Source: Microbacteriaceae bacterium (lineage in GTDB: Bacteria; Actinomycetota; Actinomycetes; Actinomycetales; Microbacteriaceae). Taken from it: a DNA stretch of 33,861 nt. Each line of letters opens with the position of its first letter. Within the stretch, counting starts at the first letter, position 1. Positions 14,026 to 33,861 of the stretch are shown here, in pieces. The notes below the pieces were generated by a model that saw only the letters and a program-made list of their open reading frames with translations, was not told where the DNA came from and ran no database searches. The stretch is taken from contig JAIOXB010000005.1 in the NCBI GenBank assembly GCA_021741825.1, forward strand, positions 1-33,861. Direction: 5' to 3'. The position numbers and the translations under genes were made by a program.

Positions 14026-14823
14026 ATGAATAGTGCAGGTGACATCATCAAGGCAGTGATTCTCGCGGGAGGCCTCGGGACCCGCATTAGCGAAGAAACA
14101 TCGACTCGACCGAAACCCATGGTCGAGGTCGGGGGGATGCCGATTCTGTGGCACATCATGAAGATGTACTCGCACCACGGAATCAACGAGTTCATCATTT
14201 GCCTGGGATACAAGGGCTACGCGATCAAGGAATACTTCGCGAACTATTTCCTCCACACCTCGGACGTGACGATGGACCTTTCGGACAATTCGATCGAGGT
14301 CCACCACCGTTACACCGAGCCGTGGAAAGTCACACTCGTGGACACGGGTGAAGCGACAATGACCGGTGGCCGGTTGAAGCGAATTCGCTCGTATCTCACC
14401 GCCGGAGAGCCCTTCTGCATGACCTACGGTGACGGTGTCAGTGACGTGGACATCACCCAGCTCATCGCTCACCACACATCAGCGGGACTGGACGCCACCC
14501 TCACCGCGACTATTCCACCGGGTCGATTTGGCGCGCTCGACCTTGCGCCAGACGGCCGAGTCAACGCTTTCCAGGAAAAGCCCGACGGGGACGGCGGAAT
14601 GATCAACGGCGGCTTTTTCGTCCTCGACCCCAAAGTGATCGATTTGGTCGACGGCGATGACACGGTGTGGGAGCAGGGTCCGCTCGAGAAACTCGCCAAA
14701 TCCGGGCAATTGTCGGCATTCACACACACGGGGTTTTGGCAACCGATGGATACGCTTCGTGACAAGAACTATCTTGAAGCGCTCTGGGCCAAGGGAGAAG
14801 CGCCGTGGAAAACCTGGGCGTGA
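14026..14823 (+). CDS. rfbF: Glucose-1-phosphate cytidylyltransferase
   Basis: [70 protein letters not shown]; near-canonical RfbF. Confidence 0.95.
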
Positions 14824-15890
14824 CCGCCGATTTCTGGTCGGGAAAGCGCGTTTTTCTGACCGGACACACAGGTTTTAAGGGCAGCTGGTTGGCCGTCTGG
14901 TTGCACAAACTCGGCGCAGACGTGACGGGCTTTTCGCTCGAGCCAAACACGCAGCCGAATCATTTCGAGGCGCTGAAACTCGACTCTGCCATCACGTCGA
15001 TTCTGGGCGACATTCGAGACCTCGAACACCTTCGGTCATCGATGGTCGCGGCGAATCCCGACATTGTCCTGCACCTCGCGGCGCAACCGCTCGTTCGCGA
15101 GTCGTTCGACAACCCCATCGACACCTACGCGACCAACGTGATGGGTACCGCGAACGTTCTCGAATCGGTTCGCGATTGCCCGAGCGTCAAATCGGTCGTG
15201 ATGATCACGACCGACAAGGTCTACGAAAACAAGGAATGGGAATGGGGTTACCGCGAAGACGACCGTCTCGGCGGCTTTGACCCCTATTCGAACAGCAAGG
15301 CCTGCAGTGAACTCGTCACCGCGTCATACACTCAGTCTTTTTTCAACTCGGACGACTACGGCACCCACGGAGTCGCGATTGCGACCGCTCGAGCCGGGAA
15401 TGTTTTCGGCGGCGGAGACTGGGCGAAAGACCGCCTGATTCCCGACCTTGTTCGCGCGCACGCGGAAAAAGTGGCTCCGGTGATTCGCTACCCCGGTGCC
15501 GTTCGTCCGTGGCAGCACGTGCTCGAGCCACTGAGTGGTTATCTTGCCCTCGCCCGCGCCTTATATGAACACGGCCCGCGGTTCAACGGCGCCTACAACT
15601 TCGGCCCCCGAGACACCGACGCACAGACCGTCAAAACAATCTGCGAGATCGTCACGGGAATTCTGGGTGACGCGCAGAAGTGGGTGTTGGACGACGCGGT
15701 CAATCCCCACGAGGCGGGCCATCTCAAACTCGATATCTCGAAGGCAAAGGCACGACTCGGCTGGGAGCCAAAAACCAACCTCGACCAAGGCCTGACGCTT
15801 GCGGGTGAGTGGTACAAGAACTTCGCTGCGGGAACAGACGCGATGGAGTTAACACTGCGTGATATCGCAGCGTTCGAGGTGCTTTCCTAG
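14805..15890 (+). CDS. rfbG: CDP-glucose 4,6-dehydratase
   Basis: [76 protein letters not shown]; overlaps rfbF end. Confidence 0.95.
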
Positions 15891-15910: not shown

Positions 15911-15940
15911 CTGACGATCCCGAGAACAACTCGCCGTCAG
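15911..15940. terminator. Possible hairpin between convergent rfbG and TauE gene
   Basis: CTGACG-atcc-CGAG-aacaa-CTCG-c-CGTCAG: nested outer and inner stems in the convergent intergenic region; no clear T-tract. Confidence 0.3.
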
Positions 15941-16683
15941 AAGAGGAGAGTCACACCGCGAATGAGGGTGGCGACCGATCCCAGGATTGCGAGCCACGTT
16001 ATCGCGTTGCTCGTGCGTTCGAGCGAGAGCTTTCGTGAGATCAGTTCTCCGACGAGGAGACCGGCCCCCAGAGCCCCCAGCAACACGATCCACGAAATGA
16101 GCGAATACGACGGCAGTGGAATCGAGCCGCCCCAGGTCTTGAACAGGAGCGAGCCTCCGCTCATCATGATGAGGAGGGGCTGAATCGTCGGGATGAACCT
16201 GTCCGGCGGCCACCTTTTCAGATTGCGGAACACGACCAAGGGTGGGCCGCCGATCGATGCGACGGCGTTCAGGAACCCGGACGCCAACCCGGTCAGAGAC
16301 GCGGGAATGAACAGTGACTGTGTCGACGGCAGCGGAGGGGACTTCACCGTGATGATTACCGCGAGTAACAACACGAACCCGATTCCGACCTCCAGAAAAG
16401 CCGGATCGACCTCCTTCAGGAACGACACCCCGAGCCAGATTCCCAGCGCACAGGGAAGAAACATCGGCAGGATTATGTTCCATTCGATGTTCCGCCAGTT
16501 CAGAAACATCGCCAATCCTGCCGCAGGCAGACCAAGCAGGTTCATCAACAAGACGCCTTCGAACGGTCCTACGGCGATGATCGCCAGCGGAGCCGCCGCC
16601 AAAGCGAACCCCATACCCGTAGCACGTTGAGCAATTCCTCCCATGGCAACCGCCAGCAGCAGGAGCCATGCGTAATCGATCAT
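15937..16683 (-). CDS. TauE/SafE family sulfite/anion exporter-like permease (copy A)
   Basis: IAQRATGMGFALAAAPLAIIAVGPFEGVLLMNLLG and ASGFLNAVASIGGPPLVVF. Confidence 0.87.
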   Translation of the reverse strand: MIDYAWLLLLAVAMGGIAQRATGMGFALAAAPLAIIAVGPFEGVLLMNLLGLPAAGLAMFLNWRNIEWNIILPMFLPCALGIWLGVSFLKEVDPAFLEVGIGFVLLLAVIITVKSPPLPSTQSLFIPASLTGLASGFLNAVASIGGPPLVVFRNLKRWPPDRFIPTIQPLLIMMSGGSLLFKTWGGSIPLPSYSLISWIVLLGALGAGLLVGELISRKLSLERTSNAITWLAILGSVATLIRGVTLLF

Positions 16684-17699
16684 CAGAGGTGCGTGACCTC
16701 CGCAGCCAGAGGGGCGAGGAAAGTCGTGGCCGTCTCGTGGAGCACTTTGCCGAGTTCGGCGTTGTCCAGACCCATCACTCTCTCTACTGTCTGAACCGGG
16801 TTCATGTCCGCCATGTCGAACGGGTAGTCGCTTCCCAGGAAAACTCGATCCGCACCCATTCGGTTGATCAACAGGGCCAGCGACTGATCGTCGTGAGTGA
16901 GCGAATCGAACCAGAAATGCTTCAAGAGAGTGGAAGGCGCGACAGGAAGATGAACCTTGGGCTCTGGTCGAGCCGCCCAGCCGTGATCGAATCGTCCGAT
17001 TTGATAGGGCAGGAAGCCGCCACCGTGCAGCAGTCCGAACCGAAGACGTGGGTGCCGTGTCAACACCCCCCCGAACATGAGCGACCCCGCCGCGAGCGTC
17101 GTGTCGGTCGGGTTTCCCACGAAGTTGTGCAGATAGTGCGCCTTCATTCGGCCGGTTCCCTCAACCACGTCGTGGGGATGAAGGACAATTGGCATTCCGG
17201 CCAGCGCGATGGCCGCCCAGATTGGATCGAGTTCTGGCGCATCGAGATTGACTCCGGCGACGTTCGTGGCGAGTTCAACCCCAACCACATGAGGTGATTG
17301 TGCCAGTCGGGACAGTTCCGCGATCGCGAAATCAGCGCTCTGCATCGGAAGCGTTGCAAGGACAACGAACCTGTCCGGGCTCGCCTCTGCCATCGCAATC
17401 ATCGAATCGTTGTGGCTGGCGGCGACGAGCGCTGCAAGTTCAGCGTCAACGTGATAGTTGAAGTGTGTCGGGGGGACACTGAGCGCTTGAACGTCAATTC
17501 GCATCGCATCCATGTCCTTGATGCGCGCTTCGTGGTCGAACATTCCGATTGGCATCGGTCCACTCCGGCGTCCGTCTTCATAGACAAACGTGCAATTCGA
17601 GCCGTCCAGTTCGATGCGAGGCGCTAGTTGCGGTGCTTCGCTTTTCATCCTCTCGATGTGATCGGCAGGAACGGTGTGGGCATGTACGTCAATGGTCAT
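16683..17699 (-). CDS. Amidohydrolase family protein (ACMSD-like metal-dependent hydrolase/decarboxylase)
   Basis: MTIDVHAHTVPADHIERM (HxH), LHPHDVVEGTG, GLLHGGGFLPYQIGRFDHGW, FLGSDYPFDMADM. Confidence 0.88.
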   Translation of the reverse strand: MTIDVHAHTVPADHIERMKSEAPQLAPRIELDGSNCTFVYEDGRRSGPMPIGMFDHEARIKDMDAMRIDVQALSVPPTHFNYHVDAELAALVAASHNDSMIAMAEASPDRFVVLATLPMQSADFAIAELSRLAQSPHVVGVELATNVAGVNLDAPELDPIWAAIALAGMPIVLHPHDVVEGTGRMKAHYLHNFVGNPTDTTLAAGSLMFGGVLTRHPRLRFGLLHGGGFLPYQIGRFDHGWAARPEPKVHLPVAPSTLLKHFWFDSLTHDDQSLALLINRMGADRVFLGSDYPFDMADMNPVQTVERVMGLDNAELGKVLHETATTFLAPLAAEVTHL

Positions 17700-18537
17700 T
17701 TTTCTCCAAGTCAGGGCGGGATACTGCAGTGGATCTCCAGAAGACGATTCTCTTCTCTGCGAAGGAAATCAGCAGATACGCACTGACTCCAATCACCAGG
17801 AAGCACAGAATAAGAACCCAGGCGGCGGGGGTGTCGTAGCTCGAGCGATACCTCAACAGCAAGAAGCCAAGGCCCGCGTCCGCCCCGACAAACTCCGAGA
17901 CGATTGCACCGATGATTGCGGTTGTCGCGCCGAGTTGCAAACCGCCAAAGATAACGGGCAGCGCAGAGGGAACTCGCAGCTTCAACAGTGTCTGGAGTTT
18001 TGATGCTCCGAGTGACTGCATGAGGGAAACGCTGTTTGCGTTGGCTAGCGACAACCCGGACAGCGTCGTGATAAACACGGCGTAGAAACACGCAATGGCC
18101 GCCTGCACCGCCTTGCCCTCAATTCCGAAACCGAACCACGCGATGATCAGCGGGGCGATGATGACGGTCGGAACTGCTTCCAGCGCGCTGAGCGCCGGAA
18201 GATACGCGGCTCGAAGAACGCTCGATGACCCGAGCAACAATCCGAGAAGGAAACCAACCGCGGCACCCAGGGCGAATCCGGCAAGTGTCTCGATCAACGT
18301 TCGAGAGGCGTGGATGCCAAAGGTTTCTGATCCCAACACGCGTGGAATCGATGTCAGAACGGCTTCAGGCCCTGGCAAAAGAATGGGATGCAAGACTTCG
18401 AGCTGTGTCACCACGAACCAGACAAGGAGGATTGCCGGGAAGAGCGCGGCGGTTATCCAGTAGGGCGATACCTTCCTGCGCTTCTTTTGAGGGTCGAGTA
18501 GCGTCGCCTGTGCGCCGCTTGTGGCTGCTGTGCTCAT
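17689..18537 (-). CDS. ABC transporter permease (SsuC/TauC-like)
   Basis: BPD-type permease with LGASKLQTLLKLRVPSALPVIFGGLQLGATTAIIGAIVSEFVGADAGLGFLLL; ATG at 18537 overlaps upstream stop. Confidence 0.88.
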   Translation of the reverse strand: MSTAATSGAQATLLDPQKKRRKVSPYWITAALFPAILLVWFVVTQLEVLHPILLPGPEAVLTSIPRVLGSETFGIHASRTLIETLAGFALGAAVGFLLGLLLGSSSVLRAAYLPALSALEAVPTVIIAPLIIAWFGFGIEGKAVQAAIACFYAVFITTLSGLSLANANSVSLMQSLGASKLQTLLKLRVPSALPVIFGGLQLGATTAIIGAIVSEFVGADAGLGFLLLRYRSSYDTPAAWVLILCFLVIGVSAYLLISFAEKRIVFWRSTAVSRPDLEKNDH

Positions 18538-19367
18538 GACTTTTTGCCTCGCTCGCTCTCGGACCAAAAGACCGCTTTTCTTTCAAGCACATCCATGATC
18601 GACACCAATGACACCGCGATGGTCAGAACCACGGTGATGACAGCCAGCGTCAAGGGCATGTTCAACTGAATAGAGAATTCCTTGACCAGTTTGCCGAGAC
18701 CGTTTGATGCGGACGACAAAATCTCGGCCACTAGGACACCGGTGAACGAGAGCAGCATTGCGTGCTTCATGCCCACCAAGACGATCGGCACGGCTGAAGG
18801 CATTTGCAGCTTGCGGAACAACTGCACACGCGTTGCGTTGAGCGACCGCATGAACGTGAACTCCGCAGCGCTGGGAAGTGAAAGTCCGACCATCGTGTTG
18901 ATCCAGACCGGGAAGAAGCAAATGGCGACCGCGATGGCGATCTTGCTTTCAGGTCCGAAGCCCAGCGCCCCGATCAGGACGGGAGCTAAGACGATTTTGG
19001 GAAGGGCTTGAAGCGCGATTGCATAGGGCGTGATGGCGGTGCGGACAAATGGAGAAGTCCCCAGCACGACGCCCATGGTGATTCCGAAGGCCACACCAAT
19101 CGTCCAGGCGATCAACACGGACGACAGGGTACTGGCCAAATCCTCCCACCAATACCCTCCAATAATGAGCTGCCCGAGCCCCCAGATTGTGTCGGACACC
19201 GTCGGGATGAGAACGCGATTTAGCACACCGAGGGTCGGAAGAATTTCCCACAGAGCCAGGAAGACCACGAGCGTGACGGTACCGACGATGACCGATTGTG
19301 TCGTGGACTTACTCTGTTTTCTGAGTTCTTTGCCGCGAGACCGGACGTCGGCAGCGGTGGAGGTCAT
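18534..19367 (-). CDS. ABC transporter permease (SsuC/TauC-like), second paralogue
   Basis: LNATRVQLFRKLQMPSAVPIVLVGMKHAMLLSFTGVLVAEILSSASNGLGKLV; polytopic. Confidence 0.88.
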   Translation of the reverse strand: MTSTAADVRSRGKELRKQSKSTTQSVIVGTVTLVVFLALWEILPTLGVLNRVLIPTVSDTIWGLGQLIIGGYWWEDLASTLSSVLIAWTIGVAFGITMGVVLGTSPFVRTAITPYAIALQALPKIVLAPVLIGALGFGPESKIAIAVAICFFPVWINTMVGLSLPSAAEFTFMRSLNATRVQLFRKLQMPSAVPIVLVGMKHAMLLSFTGVLVAEILSSASNGLGKLVKEFSIQLNMPLTLAVITVVLTIAVSLVSIMDVLERKAVFWSESERGKKS

Positions 19368-20140
19368 GCCAGGCCTAACATTTCGCGAGCCTGGACCACG
19401 AGCTTGGTGAACTCTGGGCGCCCATAGAGCTCGGGCTTACGCGGCCGCTCAAACGGAACATCGATGACTCCGATGAGGCGGCCCGGTCGTGCACTCATCA
19501 CGGCGATTCGATCCGACATGAACACCGCCTCGCTGATGTTGTGCGTGACCAATACCGCGGTCGATCCCGAGTGGCTTTGAAGCCGCAAGAGCTCTTGGTT
19601 CATTGTCTCGCGGGTGAATTCATCGAGAGCACCGAAGGGCTCATCGAGAAGGAGAAGTTTCGGGTGGTGAATGAGCACGCGACAGAGCGCAGCACGCTGC
19701 TGCATTCCACCCGACAATTGCCACGGATACGATTTGGCGAATTCTGTCATGCCGACCATCTCCAAAAGCTCTTCGGCTTTCGCAACATAGTCCTTTTTGT
19801 TCAAGCCAAAGACTTCGATCGGGAGAAGAACGTTTTCAATCGTTGTCCTCCACGGGAACATGACCGCTTGCTGGAACATCATGCCGATGTCTCGGCGTGG
19901 CTTTGTCATTTCTTCGCCGGCGATCGTGATTATTCCCTCGGAGGCTTTCAGCAAACCGCCCATGATGTTGAGGGCGGTCGACTTACCGCAACCACTGGGA
20001 CCCAGGAGGGAGAGAAACTCCCCCTCCCGGGCCTCAAGGTCAAGGCCACTGAGCGCAACGATTTCATTGCTACCCGACTGGTACTTCTTAGAGACACCCT
20101 CTAAGCGGACCAGTACTTTGGAATCGTTATTCTTTGGCAT
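19364..20140 (-). CDS. ABC transporter ATP-binding protein (SsuB/TauB-like)
   Basis: Walker A GPSGCGKST, signature LSGGMQQR, Walker B LLLLDEPFGALD. Confidence 0.95.
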   Translation of the reverse strand: MPKNNDSKVLVRLEGVSKKYQSGSNEIVALSGLDLEAREGEFLSLLGPSGCGKSTALNIMGGLLKASEGIITIAGEEMTKPRRDIGMMFQQAVMFPWRTTIENVLLPIEVFGLNKKDYVAKAEELLEMVGMTEFAKSYPWQLSGGMQQRAALCRVLIHHPKLLLLDEPFGALDEFTRETMNQELLRLQSHSGSTAVLVTHNISEAVFMSDRIAVMSARPGRLIGVIDVPFERPRKPELYGRPEFTKLVVQAREMLGLA

Positions 20141-20165
20141 TTCAGCGGCCTTTCGTTTGTACTAG

Positions 20166-21233
20166 TTAGTAGTTCGCTGCGTCTGATTCGACCCGAGCGC
20201 GGTCGAAGTCATTGGCAACACTGAGGTAATCGGTGTTGAGGAACACCGACAGATCGACGTCTTGAGCGTTGTCAATCGTCGACGCGATGAGAGCCAAGAA
20301 CGCGCTGGTTCCGGCCTCGTTGTGTGCACCGTACGCCGCTGAATCCGCGGGTGGCACCTGGGTGAGCGACAGCGCGAAGCGCAATCCACCCTGAGAGATG
20401 CCATCCATGTTTTCTTCGAACGCAGCCGGGATTACTTCCTTCAACATTCCAATACATGCTTCATTGTTTTGGAGGCAGAAGTGCGTTCCCATCGCGGTGC
20501 CCTTGGCAAAGAGACCCCATGCATCGCCCTTTTCTTCGAGCTTTGCGCTCGTCGTGATGATTCCACGAGCCGGGAATGTCTTGAACTCGGCAGGAGTCAG
20601 GTCAACCAGGTTCAAACCCTGAGTCTGCAACGCGAAGATGTCGTTGTACGCGGTTGAGTAGGCATCAACGTTTCCGCCTTCAATCGCAGCAAACGTCTCT
20701 GGTCCACCGTCACCGATTGGGATCAGGGTAGCGCCAGTGATGGGGTCGATTCCTTCATTGATGAGTGATGCCTCAAGGAAGGAAACCTCGCCGCCACCGG
20801 GTTCCGAGATACCGATGTTCTTGCCAGCAAGACCAGCGATGCTCGTGATACCTGAGGATTCCGGAGCGAAGATACCGAAAATCGCACCGGTCGAGTAGGT
20901 GTAGAGGTTGATGAGGTCAAGACCAACAACAATTCCTTCACCGACAGCGGGCATCGATGGGTTACCCGCATCGATGTTGCCAGCGACGAGCTGTTCCACA
21001 ACGTCGCCACTACCGCCAACTGCTTCGAACGTGACATCGAGTCCCAATTCGTCGTAGTAGCCGAGTTCAGACGCTGCAAGCCAGCCCCACCATTCAGCAG
21101 TGAAGGTGTCGCCGGATGCCATGCCCATAACGATTGAAACTTTCTCGGTAGGGGCGGCTGGAGCACACGCAGAAAGAGCAAAGGCGCCAACGGCCAAAAT
21201 CGCCATTGAGCCAAGCCGTCTCGTTTTGTTCAT
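20166..21233 (-). CDS. ABC transporter substrate-binding lipoprotein (NMT1/THI5-like)
   Basis: Start ATG at 21233 (SD AAGGAG upstream): MNKTRRLGSMAILAVGAFALSACAPAAP with lipobox; EWWGWLAASELGYYDELGLDVTFEAVGGSGDVVEQLVAGNIDAG. Confidence 0.9.
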   Translation of the reverse strand: MNKTRRLGSMAILAVGAFALSACAPAAPTEKVSIVMGMASGDTFTAEWWGWLAASELGYYDELGLDVTFEAVGGSGDVVEQLVAGNIDAGNPSMPAVGEGIVVGLDLINLYTYSTGAIFGIFAPESSGITSIAGLAGKNIGISEPGGGEVSFLEASLINEGIDPITGATLIPIGDGGPETFAAIEGGNVDAYSTAYNDIFALQTQGLNLVDLTPAEFKTFPARGIITTSAKLEEKGDAWGLFAKGTAMGTHFCLQNNEACIGMLKEVIPAAFEENMDGISQGGLRFALSLTQVPPADSAAYGAHNEAGTSAFLALIASTIDNAQDVDLSVFLNTDYLSVANDFDRARVESDAANY

Positions 21234-21293: not shown

Positions 21294-21310
21294 ATCTCGC
21301 GATGCGAGAT
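21294..21310. promoter_or_regulatory. Perfect 7-bp inverted repeat upstream of the ABC transporter operon, candidate operator
   Basis: ATCTCGC-gat-GCGAGAT in the AKR/SBP intergenic gap; contains TCTC-N7-GAGA. Confidence 0.5.
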
Positions 21311-21320
21311 TGTGAGCCCC

Positions 21321-22262
21321 CTAGGTGCGAACCTCTGCAACGATCGCGGAGATTGCCACTAAGTCTTCGGTGGATAACACGGCATCTGCTGCTCGGGTGT
21401 TGTCCACTACCTGTTGGGGGCGAGAAGCCCCCGTGATGACGCACGAAACTGAGGATTGGCGAAGGATCCACTGGATTGCCGCAACCAGTGGGTCGTAGCC
21501 CTCGGCGATGAGAGCGGACACGATGTCTTTCGCGAGATTTTTGTCCTCGTCGCTGAACCAGTCCTGATAAAGCTTGATGGTCGCGAGCCTGGTGTCTTCC
21601 GGGTCCGCTTTTCCGTGCTGGTACTTTCCCGTGAGCAAACCGCTCGCCAGTGGATAGTAGGGCACAAACGCCGTTCCCGTCGCCTCGCAGAAATCGAATA
21701 CGCCGTCCGTTTCCGAACCCGTTCGGATCATCGAATACTCGTTTTGGACGGACACATATTTTGCGAAACCATTTGCGGTAGAGACGTCGTGGGCTTCTTT
21801 CAATTCAGCGGCCGTCGCGTTCGAGACACCGATTTCTCGGACCAGTCCCTCGAGGACCAGGTCATTCAATGCGCCGAGGGTTTCCTCGAGCGGAACCTTG
21901 GGGTCCGGCCTGTGCAGCTGATACAGGTCGATGTAATCAGTGCCGAGCCGAGTAAGGCTTCCCTGAACCGCCTTGCGAATCCAGTCCGCCGACGCGCCAC
22001 CGCTCTCTGGTTGGTCGGGCAACACCAAACCAAACTTGGTCGCAACGATGACGCTGCTTCGCTTGGATTTGATGGCCTCGCCGAGGAAAGTCTCTGAACG
22101 TGTCTCGCCGTACTTGTCCGCGGTATCGAAGTAATTGATCCCGCACTCGAGAGCGACATCAACGATTTCCTGAGTCGCTTTTTGGTCCAGTCCGCGGCCC
22201 ATGTTGTTGCAGCCGATACCCAGTACTGACGAACTGAGTGAACCGATTGTTCGCAGCATCAT
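21321..22262 (-). CDS. Aldo/keto reductase
   Basis: Start at 22262 overlapping the thiolase stop (ATGA): MMLRTIGSLSSSVLGIGCNNMGRG; YFDTADKYGETRSETFLGEAI; TDYIDLYQLHRPDP; EIGVSNA. Confidence 0.92.
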   Translation of the reverse strand: MMLRTIGSLSSSVLGIGCNNMGRGLDQKATQEIVDVALECGINYFDTADKYGETRSETFLGEAIKSKRSSVIVATKFGLVLPDQPESGGASADWIRKAVQGSLTRLGTDYIDLYQLHRPDPKVPLEETLGALNDLVLEGLVREIGVSNATAAELKEAHDVSTANGFAKYVSVQNEYSMIRTGSETDGVFDFCEATGTAFVPYYPLASGLLTGKYQHGKADPEDTRLATIKLYQDWFSDEDKNLAKDIVSALIAEGYDPLVAAIQWILRQSSVSCVITGASRPQQVVDNTRAADAVLSTEDLVAISAIVAEVRT

Positions 22263-23401
22263 GATGGCTCCTCGTTTCCGAGAATCGCCGTGGCGTGTGA
22301 GGCCAGGGTCATCCCCATTCCGTGGACGAGAGACAGTTTTGCTCCGTCGTGTTGTCGAGCGCCGGCCGTGCCGCGAAGTTGTGCCACGGCCTCGATCATG
22401 AGGAACATCGACAGCATTCCCGGATGCGAGAAGGACAGGCCTCCGCCGTTGGGGTTCAACGACAATTCCCCGCCGGGCGCGAGGCGACCGTTCTCGACAA
22501 ACGACCCGCCTTCGCCCTTTGCGCAAAAACCAAGGTCCTCCATCAGAATCAGCAAGCTGATAGTGAATGCGTCGTAAACGTGGGCCGTATCGATATCGGC
22601 AATTCCAACCCCGGCTTGTTCGAATGCGCGCTTGGCCGAAACCGACGCCCTCGTGCTGGTGAAATCGGGCATTTGCGAAATGTTGCGGTGGTTTTGCGCT
22701 TCACCGGTTCCCAGTACCCACACGGGTTTCTGCTTGAGCGATCGCGCCCGTGCCCCCGAGGTGACGACGATTGCGCCCGCACCATCCGTGACAAGGCAGC
22801 AATCAAGTTTGTGTAACGGTGACGCGACGATTCCTGAACTCAAAACCTCGTCGACCGTGAGCGGCGTGGGGTACGGGGCTTCTGGGTTGAGCAACGCCCA
22901 CTCCCGCGCCGAGACAGCGTATTGGGCCAACTGCTCGCTCGTGGTTCCGAACTCTTTCATGTGCCGGTGAGCAATCATTCCGAAAGCGCCGACGGGGTGA
23001 ATGAGGCCGTACTGCTGCTCGTACACCGACTGCTCCGCCATGCTGACGAGCTTTCCTGCATCCGTTCGTTGCGTGCTTCCGTAGACAATCAGTGCGACCT
23101 CGCAAAGACCCTGGTTGATCATGGCGACTGCGTGGCCCAGATGCTGAACAAAAGAACATCCGCCGGTTGACGTCGAGTCAACAACGTTGGGCGAAAGCCC
23201 CAGATATTCGGCCATGGTCAAGGTCGGCATCGCGTAGTAGGACGACGACGAAAAAACTGCGTCGATGTCAGACATCTGCAAACCGGCTTCTTCAACCGCG
23301 CGTTTCGCAGCTAGGGCGGCTAACCCAACAGGAGACCTGTCAGTGGTCTTGAACGTATCGATCTGGGCGGCGCCCACGATAGCGACTGACTTATCGGCCA
23401 T
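22259..23401 (-). CDS. Thiolase family protein (SCP-x/lipid-transfer-type acetyl-CoA acetyltransferase-like)
   Basis: MADKSVAIVGAAQIDTFKTTDRSPVGLAALAAKRAVEEAGL; VDSTSTGGCSFVQHLGHA; NPNGGGLSFSHPGM; adjacent DUF35 partner. Confidence 0.9.
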   Translation of the reverse strand: MADKSVAIVGAAQIDTFKTTDRSPVGLAALAAKRAVEEAGLQMSDIDAVFSSSSYYAMPTLTMAEYLGLSPNVVDSTSTGGCSFVQHLGHAVAMINQGLCEVALIVYGSTQRTDAGKLVSMAEQSVYEQQYGLIHPVGAFGMIAHRHMKEFGTTSEQLAQYAVSAREWALLNPEAPYPTPLTVDEVLSSGIVASPLHKLDCCLVTDGAGAIVVTSGARARSLKQKPVWVLGTGEAQNHRNISQMPDFTSTRASVSAKRAFEQAGVGIADIDTAHVYDAFTISLLILMEDLGFCAKGEGGSFVENGRLAPGGELSLNPNGGGLSFSHPGMLSMFLMIEAVAQLRGTAGARQHDGAKLSLVHGMGMTLASHATAILGNEEPS

Positions 23402-23804
23402 GTGACACCTCCATTCGGAAATGCACAACCGGGTGCTCGTTGTCGGGGTGTTCAATTTCGGCGACCACCGGCAAACCGATGCTGATCGCCTCGGGTTCCG
23501 ACCCGACGAGATCGGCCATCATCCGATAGCCCTCCTCGAGATCCACCATGACGATCGTGTACGGAACCTGGTCTTCGAGCGCCGGGTTTCCCGCGCGATA
23601 CTGCGTGGTGAACGAATAGATGGTGCCTCGCCCAGAACCTACGCGCGATTCAATGTCGTCACTGTGGCAGTTCGGGCACAGTGTTCGCGGGTAAAAGTGC
23701 GATGTCGAACAAGCCAGGCAGAAACCGTAGGTGAGGTTTCCGTCGGCGAGCGCCGAGAAATACAGTTTCTCCTCGCCGCGAGGCGCGATCTGTGGGCGGG
23801 TCAT
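23391..23804 (-). CDS. Zn-ribbon/OB-fold DUF35 protein, thiolase partner
   Basis: CLAC...CPNC zinc ribbon followed by GRGTIYSFTTQYRAGNP...VPYTIVMVDLEEGYRMMADLVG; overlaps the thiolase gene. Confidence 0.9.
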   Translation of the reverse strand: MTRPQIAPRGEEKLYFSALADGNLTYGFCLACSTSHFYPRTLCPNCHSDDIESRVGSGRGTIYSFTTQYRAGNPALEDQVPYTIVMVDLEEGYRMMADLVGSEPEAISIGLPVVAEIEHPDNEHPVVHFRMEVSHGR

Positions 23805-24883
23805 TTCACTCCCACCCCACTCAACGCGGCGATCGCCTGCGAAATTGCGTCGCCGACTTCAGTTGTCGAGGAGTTACCGCCCAAATCCTTGGTCAGCGTT
23901 TGTCCTTCGCGAGTCACGTGGTTGATTGCCTCGGCGAGGAGCTCCGCTGCAGCGCTTTCCCCGAGGTTCTCGAGCATCATCACCGCGGACCACACCTGAC
24001 CGATCGGGTTCGCGATGCCCATTCCCGCGATATCCGGGGCCGAACCATGAACAGGTTCGAACAGTCCCGGTCCGCTGTTGGGGTTGATGTTTGCGGATGG
24101 CGCAACACCGAGGCTTCCGACGACGGCAGCACCGATGTCGCTCAAAATGTCGCCGAAAAGATTCGACGCAACAATCACGTCCAGCGTTTGGGGGTGGCTG
24201 ACAAGACGCGCGGCCAGCGCATCGACGTGCATCGACTGCCAACTCACGTCCGGATAGTCGGTCATGACGTCCTCAACGACCTCGTCCCAGAACGTCATCG
24301 AGTGAATGATTCCGTTTGACTTGGTCGCTGAAATAAGCGTCTTCGAACGTCGCGACGCGAGCTCCGCAGCGAACCGGACGACCCGCTCGATTCCCACGCG
24401 GGTGAAGACTGCTTCTTGCACAGCAACTTCTCTGACAGTTCCGCGGTTGAATCGCCCACCGACCTCGCTGTATTCGCCCTCGGTGTTTTCGCGCACAATC
24501 CGGAAATCAATCTGTGGAACCGGGTCGCGCAACGGCGACTCGATTCCCGGCAAAAGCGTCACGGGGCGAAGGTTGATATAGAGGTCAAACTCACGTCTGA
24601 TCGGGATGAGCAACCCCCACAGTGAGACGTGGTCGGGAACACTCGGCCAACCCACGGCGCCAAGGAAGATCGCGTCGTGGGCGGCCAAGGTCTGAAGCCC
24701 GTCGTCGGGCATCATCGTTCCCGTGGTTAAGTAACGCTCGCAGGACCAATCCAGCTCGGTCCAGTCCATGGTGAATCCGTGTATTTGTGCCACTTCGTTG
24801 ACGAGTTTTTGGGCAACGGGAACTACCTCGCAACCGATTCCATCTCCTGGAATCGTCGCGATGCGGTAGCTCGTGGTTGCCAT
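23801..24883 (-). CDS. Isocitrate/isopropylmalate dehydrogenase family, tartrate/D-malate dehydrogenase-like
   Basis: YRIATIPGDGIGCEVVPVAQKLV; PDHVSLWGLLIPIRREFDLYINLRPVTLLPG; VRENTEGEYSEVGGR; NLFGDILSDIGAAVVGSLGVAPSANINP. Confidence 0.9.
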   Translation of the reverse strand: MATTSYRIATIPGDGIGCEVVPVAQKLVNEVAQIHGFTMDWTELDWSCERYLTTGTMMPDDGLQTLAAHDAIFLGAVGWPSVPDHVSLWGLLIPIRREFDLYINLRPVTLLPGIESPLRDPVPQIDFRIVRENTEGEYSEVGGRFNRGTVREVAVQEAVFTRVGIERVVRFAAELASRRSKTLISATKSNGIIHSMTFWDEVVEDVMTDYPDVSWQSMHVDALAARLVSHPQTLDVIVASNLFGDILSDIGAAVVGSLGVAPSANINPNSGPGLFEPVHGSAPDIAGMGIANPIGQVWSAVMMLENLGESAAAELLAEAINHVTREGQTLTKDLGGNSSTTEVGDAISQAIAALSGVGVK

Positions 24884-24896
24884 GATGTGTCTCTCG

Positions 24897-25892
24897 TTAC
24901 TTGATCGCCATCGGGTTCACCGGTGAGCCGACGCCCTGGGTGATGACGAGTGGGGGTGCGCAGAAGAAGAAGTCGTACTGGCCGTCCTCGGCGCAATCCG
25001 CGGCGAGCTCTTCGAGGTCGAAGATTTCGCCGATCCAGAGTCCCATCGCCACAATGAATACACAGTGCAGTGGCTGGAACACATCGGGGGTTTCATTGGG
25101 GAGCACTTCGGCACCCCACGTGTCCGTTGCAATTCCCGCGACATTCGAGTCGTAGACCCACGAGATCGCATCGAGGCCGAGGCCCGGAGCACTTCCACCC
25201 GCGTAGTCACCCCAATTACCCTTGCGTTCGCCCATTTGACCCGTGCGGATCAAGACGAAGTCGCCTTCCTTGATGGTGACACCGTGGGCGGCCGCACAGT
25301 CGGTGAGGTCTTGAGAGGTGATGGCATAACCCGGCTCGAGGAATTCGACCTTCTTGAACCGAGCGACGTCGAGCAACACTCCGCGCCCCGCGATTTGATC
25401 GCGCGCGACAGTGATTGCTCCTCGTTGAGCGCCCTTGCTGCTGATGGTGTTGGCGGCAACGCCGTTGTACATTTTGTCTTCAAAGAGGATGTGCGCCAGG
25501 GCGTCCCACTGAGTTCCCGACTGCAGAGGCATGATGATCATGTCGTCGGTTCCGCGGATGTGCCTATCGCGTCCACCGTAAAAGTCGTCAACAATTTGGC
25601 CCGAAACGATGTCTCCGCCGTCTCGGAACATCAAGTGAATCGGATTGAATCGCCCGAGGCCGCCGGTCTGAGGCCCGTTCGAGTCGACGGGGAGTCCCAT
25701 CGAGATGCGTTTTCCGGACCGAATCGAACTCGCTGCGTCGCGAACAATGTCGGGCGTGAGGAAGTTGAGCGTTCCGAGCTGGTCATCCTTACCCCAACGT
25801 CCCCAGTTGCTGTATTTCTTCGAAAGCTCGCGAACGGTCTCTACGCTCGGCTTTCCGGGTACGGGGGCTACTACCTTCGATTGATCAGTCAT
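24897..25892 (-). CDS. Cyclase family protein (PF04199, kynurenine formamidase-like superfamily)
   Basis: NWGRWGKDDQLGTLNFLTPDIVRDAA; MPLQSGTQWDALAHILFEDKMYNG; metal-site-like motif. Confidence 0.88.
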   Translation of the reverse strand: MTDQSKVVAPVPGKPSVETVRELSKKYSNWGRWGKDDQLGTLNFLTPDIVRDAASSIRSGKRISMGLPVDSNGPQTGGLGRFNPIHLMFRDGGDIVSGQIVDDFYGGRDRHIRGTDDMIIMPLQSGTQWDALAHILFEDKMYNGVAANTISSKGAQRGAITVARDQIAGRGVLLDVARFKKVEFLEPGYAITSQDLTDCAAAHGVTIKEGDFVLIRTGQMGERKGNWGDYAGGSAPGLGLDAISWVYDSNVAGIATDTWGAEVLPNETPDVFQPLHCVFIVAMGLWIGEIFDLEELAADCAEDGQYDFFFCAPPLVITQGVGSPVNPMAIK

Positions 25893-25919
25893 GGGGTCTA
25901 CTTTCTATGATTCGGGTTA

Positions 25920-27518
25920 CTAGGATTTCGTTGCGTGTGGGCGGGTGACTCCGAGGTCAACGCGAGTTCCGAGTGAATAGTCACCCGAACGGAGTCGGTG
26001 CTTTTCGATCTTTGCCGTTGGCGTTTTGGGGAGCGCGTCCAGCACCTCGACGTATCGAGGAATTTTGAAAAAGGCAAGCCGTTCCTGCGCCCACTCGATG
26101 ACTTCCGCGGGATTCACGTCGTGGCCGGGCTTGGGAACCACGAACGCGAGGATGTCCTCATCAGTAAGTTCGGAGGGAACGCCGATGACCGCGGATTCCA
26201 TGACATCGTCGTGACTGTTGAGAACGAGTTCGACCTCGAGTGACGACACGTTTTCTCCACGTCGGCGAACGATGTCCTTCATTCTGTCGACGAAGTAATA
26301 CCAACCGTCCTCGTCCATCCACGCGCTATCTCCGGTTCGCAACCAACCGTCACTGAGAACCTGATTGGTTTTCTCTGGGTCGCGGAAATAGCCGAGCATC
26401 ATTGCTTCGTTTCGGAGAACCAGTTCGCCCACTTGGCGTGGCGGCTGGCGGTTACCGTTCTCGTCAATGACCATCACCTCGGTCGGCTTCAGCTCGGGGC
26501 TCGGGTGGCTGCGAGGAAGACCCATCGACGCGGCGCGGCGCGGTTGGTCGAGTGGTTCCAACAAACCGAATGTGGTTTCGCTCATGCCGAACCCGGAAAC
26601 ACAATCCAGGTTGAAGCGTTCTTGAATCTCCATACGCACATCGTGAGGCAGCGCGGGAACCCCATACGCAACGCGAACCTTGTGGTCTCGGTCTTCCGGC
26701 CCTGGGGCTTTCTTCGACAGAATCACGGTCATCGCGCCGATGAAATTGAAAACCGTGACGCCGTGGCGTTTGACGTCTGGCCAGAACTTCGATGCACTGA
26801 AGCGGGCGGCGAGAACTAGTGCTCCCTGAGCGCCAATCGCCCCCATCGTCGAGTACGCCTGCGAGTTGATGTGGAACAGGGGAAGGCACGCGTAGATGCG
26901 ATCGCCCTTCTCCATACCCATCCAGTGGGCGTAGGCCTGTCCCGTGAGCACATAGTTCTTATGGGATTGCATGACGGCCTTGGGAAGACCGGTGGTTCCC
27001 GAGGTATAGATCAAGCTGATGAGGTCGTCGCCCACAACCGTCACGTCGGGGACCTTTGCCGGCATGGACTCTTTGCTCGCCATGAATTCGTCATACCCAT
27101 CGACGTTTCCCAGCGTGAGAACCTTTTTCAAACGAGGAACGTCCTGAGCGACTTTGTCAAAGACCGCCATGTGTTCCTGACCGACGAGCGCAAACTCTGA
27201 CTGGGAGTGATCCACGAGATAGGCGGCTTCTTTTGCCTTGAATCCCGTGTTGATCGCAACCAACACTCCGCCGATTTTTGCTAAACCGAGCCAGGCGTAC
27301 AAGAATTCGGGCGAGTTGTCCACCATGAACGACACGCAATCCCCGTGCCTTACTCCGAGTGAATACCAGAGAGCGGCTGCCTGATCCACGTGAAAATTAA
27401 AATCGACGTACGAAACGACTTGCTCTTCCCAAATCAGGAACGGATCGTTCGGGTTGGCTTCCACCGCGCGCTCCAAAAAGTTCCGAAGTGTGTAGTCGCT
27501 GAAGTCGTGGGTTGACAT
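25920..27518 (-). CDS. AMP-dependent acyl-CoA synthetase/ligase (CaiC-like)
   Basis: LISLIYTSGTTGLPKAVMQSHKN; DGWLRTGDSAWMDEDGWYYFVDRMKDIVRRRGENVSSLEVE; PKTPTAKIEKHRLR. Confidence 0.93.
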   Translation of the reverse strand: MSTHDFSDYTLRNFLERAVEANPNDPFLIWEEQVVSYVDFNFHVDQAAALWYSLGVRHGDCVSFMVDNSPEFLYAWLGLAKIGGVLVAINTGFKAKEAAYLVDHSQSEFALVGQEHMAVFDKVAQDVPRLKKVLTLGNVDGYDEFMASKESMPAKVPDVTVVGDDLISLIYTSGTTGLPKAVMQSHKNYVLTGQAYAHWMGMEKGDRIYACLPLFHINSQAYSTMGAIGAQGALVLAARFSASKFWPDVKRHGVTVFNFIGAMTVILSKKAPGPEDRDHKVRVAYGVPALPHDVRMEIQERFNLDCVSGFGMSETTFGLLEPLDQPRRAASMGLPRSHPSPELKPTEVMVIDENGNRQPPRQVGELVLRNEAMMLGYFRDPEKTNQVLSDGWLRTGDSAWMDEDGWYYFVDRMKDIVRRRGENVSSLEVELVLNSHDDVMESAVIGVPSELTDEDILAFVVPKPGHDVNPAEVIEWAQERLAFFKIPRYVEVLDALPKTPTAKIEKHRLRSGDYSLGTRVDLGVTRPHATKS

Positions 27519-29228
27519 TTACTTCGCCAGGCCCTTTGGCAGAGCGATGGAGGAGCGTTCCGTTGTTCCCTTTGGCGCGACCGCGCCGATGTCGGTAACA
27601 ACGTCGATGAGAACGGGGCCGGGCGTCTCGTGTGCTTGCTGCATCGCGGACTCCAATTGGCTTGCCTTGGTGACGCGAATTCCCTTGACGCCAAAACTTT
27701 CTGCGACGTCCGCCATGTTGACGTCGTCGAAGTGCCAGAGTTCTGCGTGTTTACCGTGAAGCGTGCCTCCATAGGCCGGAAGGTACGGGTTGATCTCTTG
27801 ATTGAGTGAACGGTTGTCGTTCACCACAAAGGTCACGGGGACCTGCCAGCGGGCGGCGGTCTCGAGCTCGCTCAAGTGGTAGTAGGCACCACCGTCGCCC
27901 GTGAAGACCACAACCGGAACATCGGGTCGCCCGATTTGAGCGCCTATCCCTGCGGGCAGCGCCCAACCGAGGGATCCCGCCGCTCGCAGATAGGTCTGTT
28001 CCGGTTTGGTCAAATCAAGATGAGCGGCTGTCCACATTCCCGCGTGCCCGGTATCGGAAACGACCATTGCGTTGTCGGGCAATAGGTTCGAGAGTTCACC
28101 AACGAGCAATTCGGGTCGCATCGGGTCGACGTTCTTGTCCATAACCGACTCGAGGCTGTCCCGCCATTCTTTTGCAACTGCCCGAGTCCACTCCGCCCAG
28201 GTCTCGTACTTGTTGGCTGGTTGATCCCACGCCTTGATGAGTTCGGTCAGAGCAAGACGGGCGTCCGAAACGACTCCGATGGTGTTCTTGTATTGATTAC
28301 CCACTTGTTCGGGGCTGATGTCGAAGTGCACAACGCGTGTGTCAGGGTGCGGAACCTGCCAGGTCAACGTGACTTGGCTTCCGGTTTGGCTTCCAATGAA
28401 AATCACCAGGTCCGCTTCGAGAACGACCTGGTTCGCGCTCTTCCGGGCATACAAGCCCGGAGTTCCGACCGACAGCTTGTGGTCGGCCGGGAACACATCT
28501 TTCGAGTTGAGCGAGGTCGCCACCGGAATCCCGGATCGTTCGGCGAAAGCGACCAACTCTGCGCCCGCCCGTGACCATCGAACTCCACCGCCCGCGACGA
28601 TTACCGGACGCGAGGATGCGGTGATTGCTGCGAGAGCCACGGCGAAGGCCTCTGGGTCCGGTGCTGTTCGGTGTAACGGCACTTCGTAGTTGTTGGAGTA
28701 GACCGCGGCCTCGATGTTCTGGGCTTCGATCATGTCACCCGTGTGACCAGCCAACTCGAGGTGGGTTGGACCGGGCCTACCGCTTGTTGCGTGGCGCAGG
28801 GCGGTGTGGAGCATGTCCGGAAGACGTTTCACATCAAGAACCTGGCCCGAATACTTGGTGACGGGCTTGAACAGCGGGAAGTCTTCGATTTCCTGGTAAT
28901 AGTTGCGTCCCCGGCTCCACTCGTACGGACCTCCGGTCAGGGCCAGAACAGGAGAGTTGGCGAGGTAGGCGTCCCGCAGGCCGGCAGCAAGGTTGGCGCC
29001 GCCGATGTTTTGAGCCGCACAGACACCCGGTCGGTTGGTGGCACGGGCATATCCGTCGGCCATGTACGCCGTCGCTTTTTCGCCGTGAGCCACGATTCGC
29101 TTGATGTTGGTTTCGTTCTCCATCGTGAAGAGCGTGTTCGTGAGAGCCGTGGGGACAAGGAAGATCGCGGTTACTCCGCACGCGTCGAGCGTCCGAGAGA
29201 GATATTGTGCTCCGGTTACGGTATCCAT
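27519..29228 (-). CDS. Thiamine diphosphate-dependent enzyme (acetolactate synthase large-subunit-like)
   Basis: AHGEKATAYMADGYARATNRPGVCAAQNIGGANLAAGL; GDGGAYYHLSELETAARWQVPVTFVVNDN (ThDP-binding GDG...N motif). Confidence 0.92.
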   Translation of the reverse strand: MDTVTGAQYLSRTLDACGVTAIFLVPTALTNTLFTMENETNIKRIVAHGEKATAYMADGYARATNRPGVCAAQNIGGANLAAGLRDAYLANSPVLALTGGPYEWSRGRNYYQEIEDFPLFKPVTKYSGQVLDVKRLPDMLHTALRHATSGRPGPTHLELAGHTGDMIEAQNIEAAVYSNNYEVPLHRTAPDPEAFAVALAAITASSRPVIVAGGGVRWSRAGAELVAFAERSGIPVATSLNSKDVFPADHKLSVGTPGLYARKSANQVVLEADLVIFIGSQTGSQVTLTWQVPHPDTRVVHFDISPEQVGNQYKNTIGVVSDARLALTELIKAWDQPANKYETWAEWTRAVAKEWRDSLESVMDKNVDPMRPELLVGELSNLLPDNAMVVSDTGHAGMWTAAHLDLTKPEQTYLRAAGSLGWALPAGIGAQIGRPDVPVVVFTGDGGAYYHLSELETAARWQVPVTFVVNDNRSLNQEINPYLPAYGGTLHGKHAELWHFDDVNMADVAESFGVKGIRVTKASQLESAMQQAHETPGPVLIDVVTDIGAVAPKGTTERSSIALPKGLAK

Positions 29229-29252
29229 CAGACTTCCTTGTCTGTTTAAGCC

Positions 29253-29271
29253 TGTCTCATATAATGAGACA
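29253..29271. promoter_or_regulatory. Palindromic operator candidate in the iclR / ThDP-enzyme divergent region
   Basis: TGTCTCAT-ata-ATGAGACA, perfect 8-bp arms, overlapping a TATAAT (29260-29265) preceded by TTGTCT (29238-29243) with 16-bp spacing on the + strand. Confidence 0.65.
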
Positions 29272-29410
29272 CAGTCTTATTTCTTCGAGCATACAACTTT
29301 TCGACGAGTTTGACCAGAGTGTCTCGAGTCGTTGCCAATTTGTTACCAAACACCGAATCGGGGCCGAAGGGAAAATAGACTGATGCTCGTTGAGCGGGAA
29401 GGATGAGCAC

Positions 29411-30220
29411 GTGACGGAACCTGAGGCGACGCCGCCCGTCGGCGCTAGTGGGGTTCTCGGTCGCGCAATCGAACTCATCGAACTCGTCGCAGCCGAGAAC
29501 AACGGGCTCGGTGTTCGCGAGGCCGCACGACTCAGCGGAGTTGATCGCAGTGCCGTCAGCAGAATCATGAGTCAGCTGGAAAAATCTGGGTACGTCGAGC
29601 AGGACCAAATTCGAAAGCTGTATTTCCCCGGTCCGAAACTTTTCTCACTGGCATCAACCCTCGTCGAACACGACAGCCTCTGGAAAGCAGCGGAACCCTT
29701 CCTTAATGAGCTGGTGCAGAGGTTCAACGAAACCTGTTACCTGTCCGTTCGGGTTCGCGATGAACTCGTCTTCCGCGGCAAGGTCGATTGCAATCACACC
29801 ATCAAGTACGTGATTGAGCTGGGAAAGCCATTCCCCTGCACATCCGGGGCCGCCGGCACGGCGATCTTGTCGGGAATGTCAGAAGACGCCAGCAATCAAA
29901 TCCTCAACAAAGGTTTTGCCCAATACACCGAACTCAGTTTTTCGTCCACGAAGGAATACCAAGAGCAACTCCGTATCGATAGGAACCTCGGCTACTCGTA
30001 TTCCCCTGGCCGATGGGTCAAGGGCGGTTCGGGTGTCGCGTCCCCCTATTTCAATGCGGCTGGTGAGTGCGTGGGTTCGATCACACTGAGCTGCCCGAGT
30101 GATCGTCTCGCTGGAATTTCCATCACGGAAGCCGGTGCTGCCGTCCGTGATGCCGCTCACGGCTTATCGCGCCGACTGGGTTACCTGGGCGATTGGGATG
30201 GCTGGTCCGCGGTCGCCTAA
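29411..30220 (+). CDS. IclR family transcriptional regulator
   Basis: Likely GTG at 29411 (ORF track TTG 29390): LGRAIELIELVAAENNGLGVREAARLSGVDRSAVSRIMSQLEKSGYVEQDQ; C-terminal IclR effector domain (GKPFPCTSGAAGTAILSGM). Confidence 0.92.
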   Translation: MTEPEATPPVGASGVLGRAIELIELVAAENNGLGVREAARLSGVDRSAVSRIMSQLEKSGYVEQDQIRKLYFPGPKLFSLASTLVEHDSLWKAAEPFLNELVQRFNETCYLSVRVRDELVFRGKVDCNHTIKYVIELGKPFPCTSGAAGTAILSGMSEDASNQILNKGFAQYTELSFSSTKEYQEQLRIDRNLGYSYSPGRWVKGGSGVASPYFNAAGECVGSITLSCPSDRLAGISITEAGAAVRDAAHGLSRRLGYLGDWDGWSAVA

Positions 30221-33754: not shown

Positions 33755-33861
33755 TTGCGACGGGGCCGGTGGTTCCTCGAACCACCAGGGTCGCCGATAC
33801 GTGTTGACGGTTTGCCGGTGCGGTGCGGTCGTCGATTCGATGGAGCATGTGTTGGGCCGCG
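33744..33861 (-). CDS. C-terminal fragment of a LacI-family transcriptional regulator, truncated by window edge
   Basis: Minus frame from 33860 down: AAQHMLHRIDDRTAPANRQHVSATLVVRGTTGPVATTT*, typical LacI C-terminus (L.R......P......LVVRGTTGP). Not in ORF track. Confidence 0.7.
   Translation of the reverse strand, partial: AAQHMLHRIDDRTAPANRQHVSATLVVRGTTGPVATTT

Follow-up and report, generated by a model that had tools for sequence, protein, structure and literature searches.

The window analysed here is the whole 33,861-nucleotide stretch of DNA from a Microbacteriaceae bacterium (GenBank assembly GCA_021741825.1, contig JAIOXB010000005.1, positions 1 to 33,861 of the forward strand). It carries a gene for an IclR-family regulator, iclR, divergent from a long run of catabolic and transporter genes. 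A preliminary description of the window had found the string TCTC-N7-GAGA in two dyads, one between iclR and the catabolic genes and the other ahead of the transporter genes, and had proposed both as operators of one IclR regulon. We describe a predicted operator of three boxes at 29254-29278, which includes the first dyad and which, because it is conserved across related bacteria, is very probably the switch of the adjacent regulator. The features concerned are as follows.

29411..30220, plus strand: iclR regulator gene (domains HTH_IclR and IclR_C); an upstream GGAAGG suggests a GTG start
29254..29278, no strand assigned: predicted three-box IclR-type operator, GTCTC-ATATAAT-GAGAC-ACA-GTCTT on the plus strand and AAGAC-TGT-GTCTC-ATTATAT-GAGAC on the strand of the thiamine diphosphate (ThDP) enzyme gene
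29253..29271, no strand assigned: first dyad of the preliminary description, TGTCTCAT-ATA-ATGAGACA, equal to boxes 1 and 2 ('group 1' arrangement of the literature)
29266..29278, no strand assigned: boxes 2 and 3, GAGAC-ACA-GTCTT, forming the RAGAC-N3-GTCTY core ('group 2' arrangement); this pair also occurs at the transporter heads of relatives
29238..29265, plus strand: promoter-like TTGTCT-16-TATAAT facing iclR
27519..29228, minus strand: ThDP-dependent enzyme of the acetolactate-synthase-like superfamily, leading the catabolic run
21321..27518, minus strand: catabolic genes for acyl-CoA ligase, cyclase, tartrate-dehydrogenase-type Iso_dh, OB/zinc-ribbon protein, thiolase and aldo/keto reductase
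21294..21310, no strand assigned: second dyad, ATCTCGC-GAT-GCGAGAT, an intercistronic inverted repeat that may be an mRNA hairpin or chance, with no operator match
15937..21232, minus strand: binding protein, ATPase, two permeases, amidohydrolase and TauE, within the same close-packed run

The product of iclR passes the domain test for the IclR family (Pfam HTH_IclR 50.4 bits and IclR_C 85 bits, against cut-offs of 22 and 24, respectively). Between 29228 and 15937, the genes of the minus strand are separated by gaps of at most 27 bp, except for 88 bp ahead of the binding-protein gene, and a pattern search of that gap returned no promoter-like and no terminator-like match. Thus, read-through from the ThDP promoter near 29254 is the likely route by which the transporter genes are controlled in the window, and what had been described as two transcription units is probably a single one.

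The three 5-bp boxes of the predicted operator alternate in direction, and the starts of boxes 1 and 3 are 20 bp (two helical turns) apart. The general form is GTCTY-N7-RAGAC-N3-GTCTY on the plus strand, or RAGAC-N3-GTCTY-N7-RAGAC on the ThDP strand, and 29254-29278 is the sole match to this pattern in 0.95 Mb of the bacterium's own genome. The centre of the array lies 38 bp upstream of the ThDP start. The -10 hexamer of the promoter-like sequence facing iclR is itself the spacer of the palindrome; this sequence, with 10 of 12 consensus bases, is the sole promoter-like match at the array (one found against 0.2 expected, by consensus match only). A small dyad, CAGAC-TTCCTT-GTCTG, is also seen just before the ThDP start codon (29229-29244); it has the AGAC/GTCT letters at a different spacing and is possibly an accessory box.

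Both dyads of the preliminary description are present with perfect arms (8-3-8 at 29253-29271 and 7-3-7 at 21294-21310), and their positions, between iclR and the ThDP gene and ahead of the transporter, hold as well, but the two are not one operator. Their pairing had been considered suggestive since about 0.5 chance matches were expected. The full-window count gave four TCTC-N7-GAGA matches, only two of them intergenic, the others (at 14394 and 16046) being intragenic. Dinucleotide shuffles set the expectation at 0.69, with at least four matches in 2 of 100 shuffles, and for two of four matches to be intergenic the chance is p about 0.02, as intergenic DNA makes up about 6.6% of the window. 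This weak intergenic signal is accounted for by one real site. The string is not operator-specific, as it has 24 matches in 0.95 Mb of the genome, where a control pattern has 7; it says little by itself, and the comparison with relatives is therefore the deciding test.

A search of 200 genomes of the family found a close IclR orthologue in three besides the bacterium's own, and the order yielded one more. A contig scan with the IclR protein alone gave no loci, whereas an alignment of ThDP proteins scanned against 84,980 species gave 20 named loci, nine of which hold the operon wholly or partly (Yonghaparkia, Marisediminicola, Glaciibacter, four of Mycolicibacterium or Mycobacterium and two Actinomycetota metagenome-assembled genomes); L056 and L057 are apparently the same loci as L048 and L046. 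The IclR orthologues are 53-57% identical and divergent from a ThDP gene whose product is 65-67% identical. In L046, L047 and L048 the gene order is conserved: ThDP enzyme, acyl-CoA ligase, cyclase, tartrate-dehydrogenase-type Iso_dh, OB protein, thiolase and a variable gene, followed by binding protein, ATPase, two permeases and amidohydrolase, and then, in L046 and L048, TauE.

The three-box array was found at the same place in 12/12 operon-bearing loci, namely the window and 11 other loci of Actinomycetota. It had been defined on five loci, including the window, and it is present in all seven further loci that were not used in the definition (L055, L058, L059, L061, L062, L063 and L067). 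In the Mycolicibacterium loci, the array stands ahead of the ThDP gene though iclR sits elsewhere in the operon region. Over 85 site-anchored aligned columns the sole invariant ones are the 12 bases of AGAC, GTCT and AGAC; these tetrads are imposed by the search pattern, and the informative points are that no operon locus lacks the array and that nothing around the array is invariant. No three-box site was found at more distant ThDP homologues without the operon, among those with upstream sequence. The other RAGAC-N3-GTCTY matches in 0.95 Mb of the genome, which were checked as candidates for further regulon members, are all spanned by long open frames, and none has three boxes. A hypergeometric value of 2e-5 obtained with the four family genomes was discounted for its circularity: the motif had been defined partly on those genomes.

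The same comparison speaks against TCTC-N7-GAGA as the operator motif. At the ThDP head the relatives show GTCTT...AAGAC, GTCTC...AAGAC or GTCTT...GAGAC and never that string; the true motif is RAGAC-N3-GTCTY, to which a third box is added at the catabolic head. The conserved part is the outer G and C that the proposed core had omitted, and the core itself is a local accident, the window's own version of the predicted boxes 1 and 2. A search of the 200 family genomes for the exact 19-bp palindrome, with one mismatch allowed, returned only unrelated singletons because the relatives carry GTCTT/AAGAC arms.

The notion of a single regulon joining transporter and catabolic genes, in turn, is borne out by the relatives, in which one operator core occurs at each of the two heads. 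Seven of them, four being Mycolicibacterium or Mycobacterium, bear RAGAC-N3-GTCTTGAC upstream of the orthologous binding-protein gene (L056, L057, L058, L059, L061, L062 and L076). This site comprises boxes 2 and 3 but lacks box 1, and its last bases form a -35-like hexamer (TTGACW), either TTGACA or TTGACT. In L046 and L048, it lies at the stop codon of the preceding gene, which encodes a metallo-beta-lactamase (MBL)-fold protein. In one genome (G217; L076, 3699-5000) the transporter block is located apart from the catabolic operon, across iclR, and still has its own RAGAC-N3-GTCTT site. A third regulated head is suggested by Mycolicibacterium, where weaker sites resembling the operator lie between iclR and the gene for the ligase (L061 at 19208; L062 at 20245 and 20400).

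In the window itself, the RAGAC-N3-GTCTT core over TTGAC was not found at the transporter head, where core scores reach no higher than -2.0. No second site is found ahead of this gene in L047 either, and L063 has a degenerate remnant there (AATAAACAATGTCTGGT, score 5.2). Between the thiolase and binding-protein genes, the window has an aldo/keto reductase gene (21321-22250) in the slot of the MBL-fold gene of L046, L047 and L048 (and, by sequence, L063), so that the stretch ahead of the transporter is not orthologous. This is a non-orthologous gene swap, which may also have removed the second operator. Thus, one regulon with a predicted operator at each head holds for the group of relatives, but it is not shown by the dyad at 21294. 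Of the proposed pair of IclR operators, phylogenetic footprinting supports the one in the gap between iclR and the ThDP gene and gives no evidence for the other.

What, then, is the 21294 dyad, which sits in the 88-bp gap between the aldo/keto reductase and binding-protein genes, both on the minus strand? A case for one IclR acting at both dyads, with 21294 as a diverged operator of the 17-bp geometry of boxes 1 and 2, might be made from the identical TCTC-N7-GAGA spacing, the perfect arms and a place ahead of the transporter gene that in relatives does hold an operator. Nevertheless, (i) the dyad has ATCTC in place of GTCTY, an A replacing the first base of GTCT, a G without exception in 12/12 three-box and 7/7 transporter sites, (ii) it has no third box, (iii) its score for boxes 1 and 2 in a position weight matrix is 2.3, at background, against 18.7-28.9 for true sites, and (iv) the transporter head of the relatives uses the other pair, RAGAC-N3-GTCTY, further upstream. 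We consider a second operator here highly improbable. A possibility that we entertain only tentatively is a hairpin in the intercistronic mRNA, which would govern how abundant or stable the transporter portion of a single long transcript is. The dyad lies 10 bp past the stop codon of the aldo/keto reductase, folding of the minus-strand RNA gives -13.8 kcal/mol (z -3.98 on 36 nt), and binding-protein genes often need more transcript than the genes upstream of them; on the other hand, z is just -1.72 on 106 nt, the 36-nt piece having been chosen post hoc, a T-run and a terminator call are both absent, and L047 has no comparable dyad (arms of at least 6) just upstream of the gene. We lean slightly towards chance, or a site of some unrelated factor, given that perfect dyads (arms of 7 or more, spacers no longer than 11) number 39 in the window, and that TCTCGC-N3-GCGAGA does not recur in 0.95 Mb of the genome, even though the dyad falls in a short gap in a window with so little intergenic DNA.

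The best explanation, in which we have considerable confidence, is that 29254-29278 is the operator of the adjacent IclR; both divergent units would be repressed from it, and the transporter would be reached by read-through rather than from an operator at 21294. IclR dimers or tetramers would bind the array and cover the iclR -10 hexamer and the ThDP promoter, repressing both units, and a metabolite of the pathway would bind IclR and cause its release. The position of the -10 hexamer within the palindrome spacer points to autoregulation of iclR, and the transporter genes of the window would follow the ThDP promoter with no second operator of their own.

Several observations weigh against this explanation. 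The 13-bp core by itself is not rare: that of the window scores 15.7 on a model built without the window, against a best core score per shuffle that averages 11.3 over 200 shuffles and once reached 22.5, so that the case rests on the three boxes and their conserved position. Of 196 family genomes that lack a close orthologue of the regulator, 11 have the array as well, as a background level would give. Repression is deduced from the overlap of the array with promoter-like sequences, and IclR may instead activate. The array could also be a real operator of another regulator family, such as GntR, as short GTCT/AGAC inverted repeats serve as operators in other families too. We regard this as hardly likely: iclR adjoins the site in the Microbacteriaceae-type loci, Mycolicibacterium keeps iclR within the operon region with related motifs next to it, and an alternating three-box geometry is what has been described for IclR-family sites (PMC8222616).

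If 29254-29278 is the IclR operator, a further reading, which strikes us as rather doubtful, is that one IclR reads one box in two geometries, as a set of three at the catabolic head and as the N3 pair alone, over the -35 hexamer, at the transporter head. Were this true, it could be a natural case of alternative dimerisation, or a means of opening uptake and catabolism in a graded manner by inducer level, and such use of one box would make a clean system for studying how IclR proteins dimerise on three-box sites. The regulon would span Microbacteriaceae-type genomes and Mycolicibacterium, tying an SsuA/NMT1-type importer to a catabolic operon. As the iclR orthologue is missing in the three other genomes of the same genus that were examined, the operon seems to be an accessory one, which a small genome may have gained by horizontal transfer.

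Two structures elsewhere in the window were also recorded. A hairpin, GGTGGTTCCTCGAACCACC (33768-33786), lies 14 bp past the stop of an acetoacetyl-CoA-synthetase-like gene and is perhaps a terminator, and a perfect palindrome with 11-bp arms, TCGGTCGTGATGATCACGACCGA (15192-15214), lies within a sugar-nucleotide dehydratase-like gene.

Regarding known systems, the closest NCBIfam equivalog to the regulator is BhcR (NF045644), to which it aligns over nearly its whole length; its assignment as BhcR was rejected at 131.5 bits against a cut-off of 350. It also fails the PcaR/PcaU/PobR subfamily model TIGR02431 (106.3 against 284.75). The predicted operator and regulon thus offer something testable for an IclR regulator that falls below the cut-offs of all the characterised regulator models it matched. 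According to Suvorova and Gelfand 2021 (PMC8222616), the IclR family has two half-site arrangements, and 32 orthologous groups are predicted to have three alternating boxes, with one pair per arrangement; for PcaU, the tested case, binding requires the third box. The 12/12 loci here have the same alternating boxes, with group 1 and group 2 pairs sharing a box, and the centre 38 bp upstream of the gene start is within the common -20 to -80 range of that work. The box GTCTY differs from the published consensus GKTYC in its third base, C instead of T, and agrees in the others; unlike the three-box sites, the transporter heads bear the group 2 pair only. The operators of PcaU, PobR and HmgR, as summarised there, differ from ours in box sequence and pathway. 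The IphR operator of Comamonas E6 listed in the same source (GTCTCATCAGAC plus the half-site ATGGAC) shares a GTCTCAT...AGAC box and an extra half-site, whereas its arms are much closer together and its genes different, the comparison being one of operators. Overall, 29254-29278 fits the published three-box anatomy of IclR operators, and its orthologous group may already be among those reported there.
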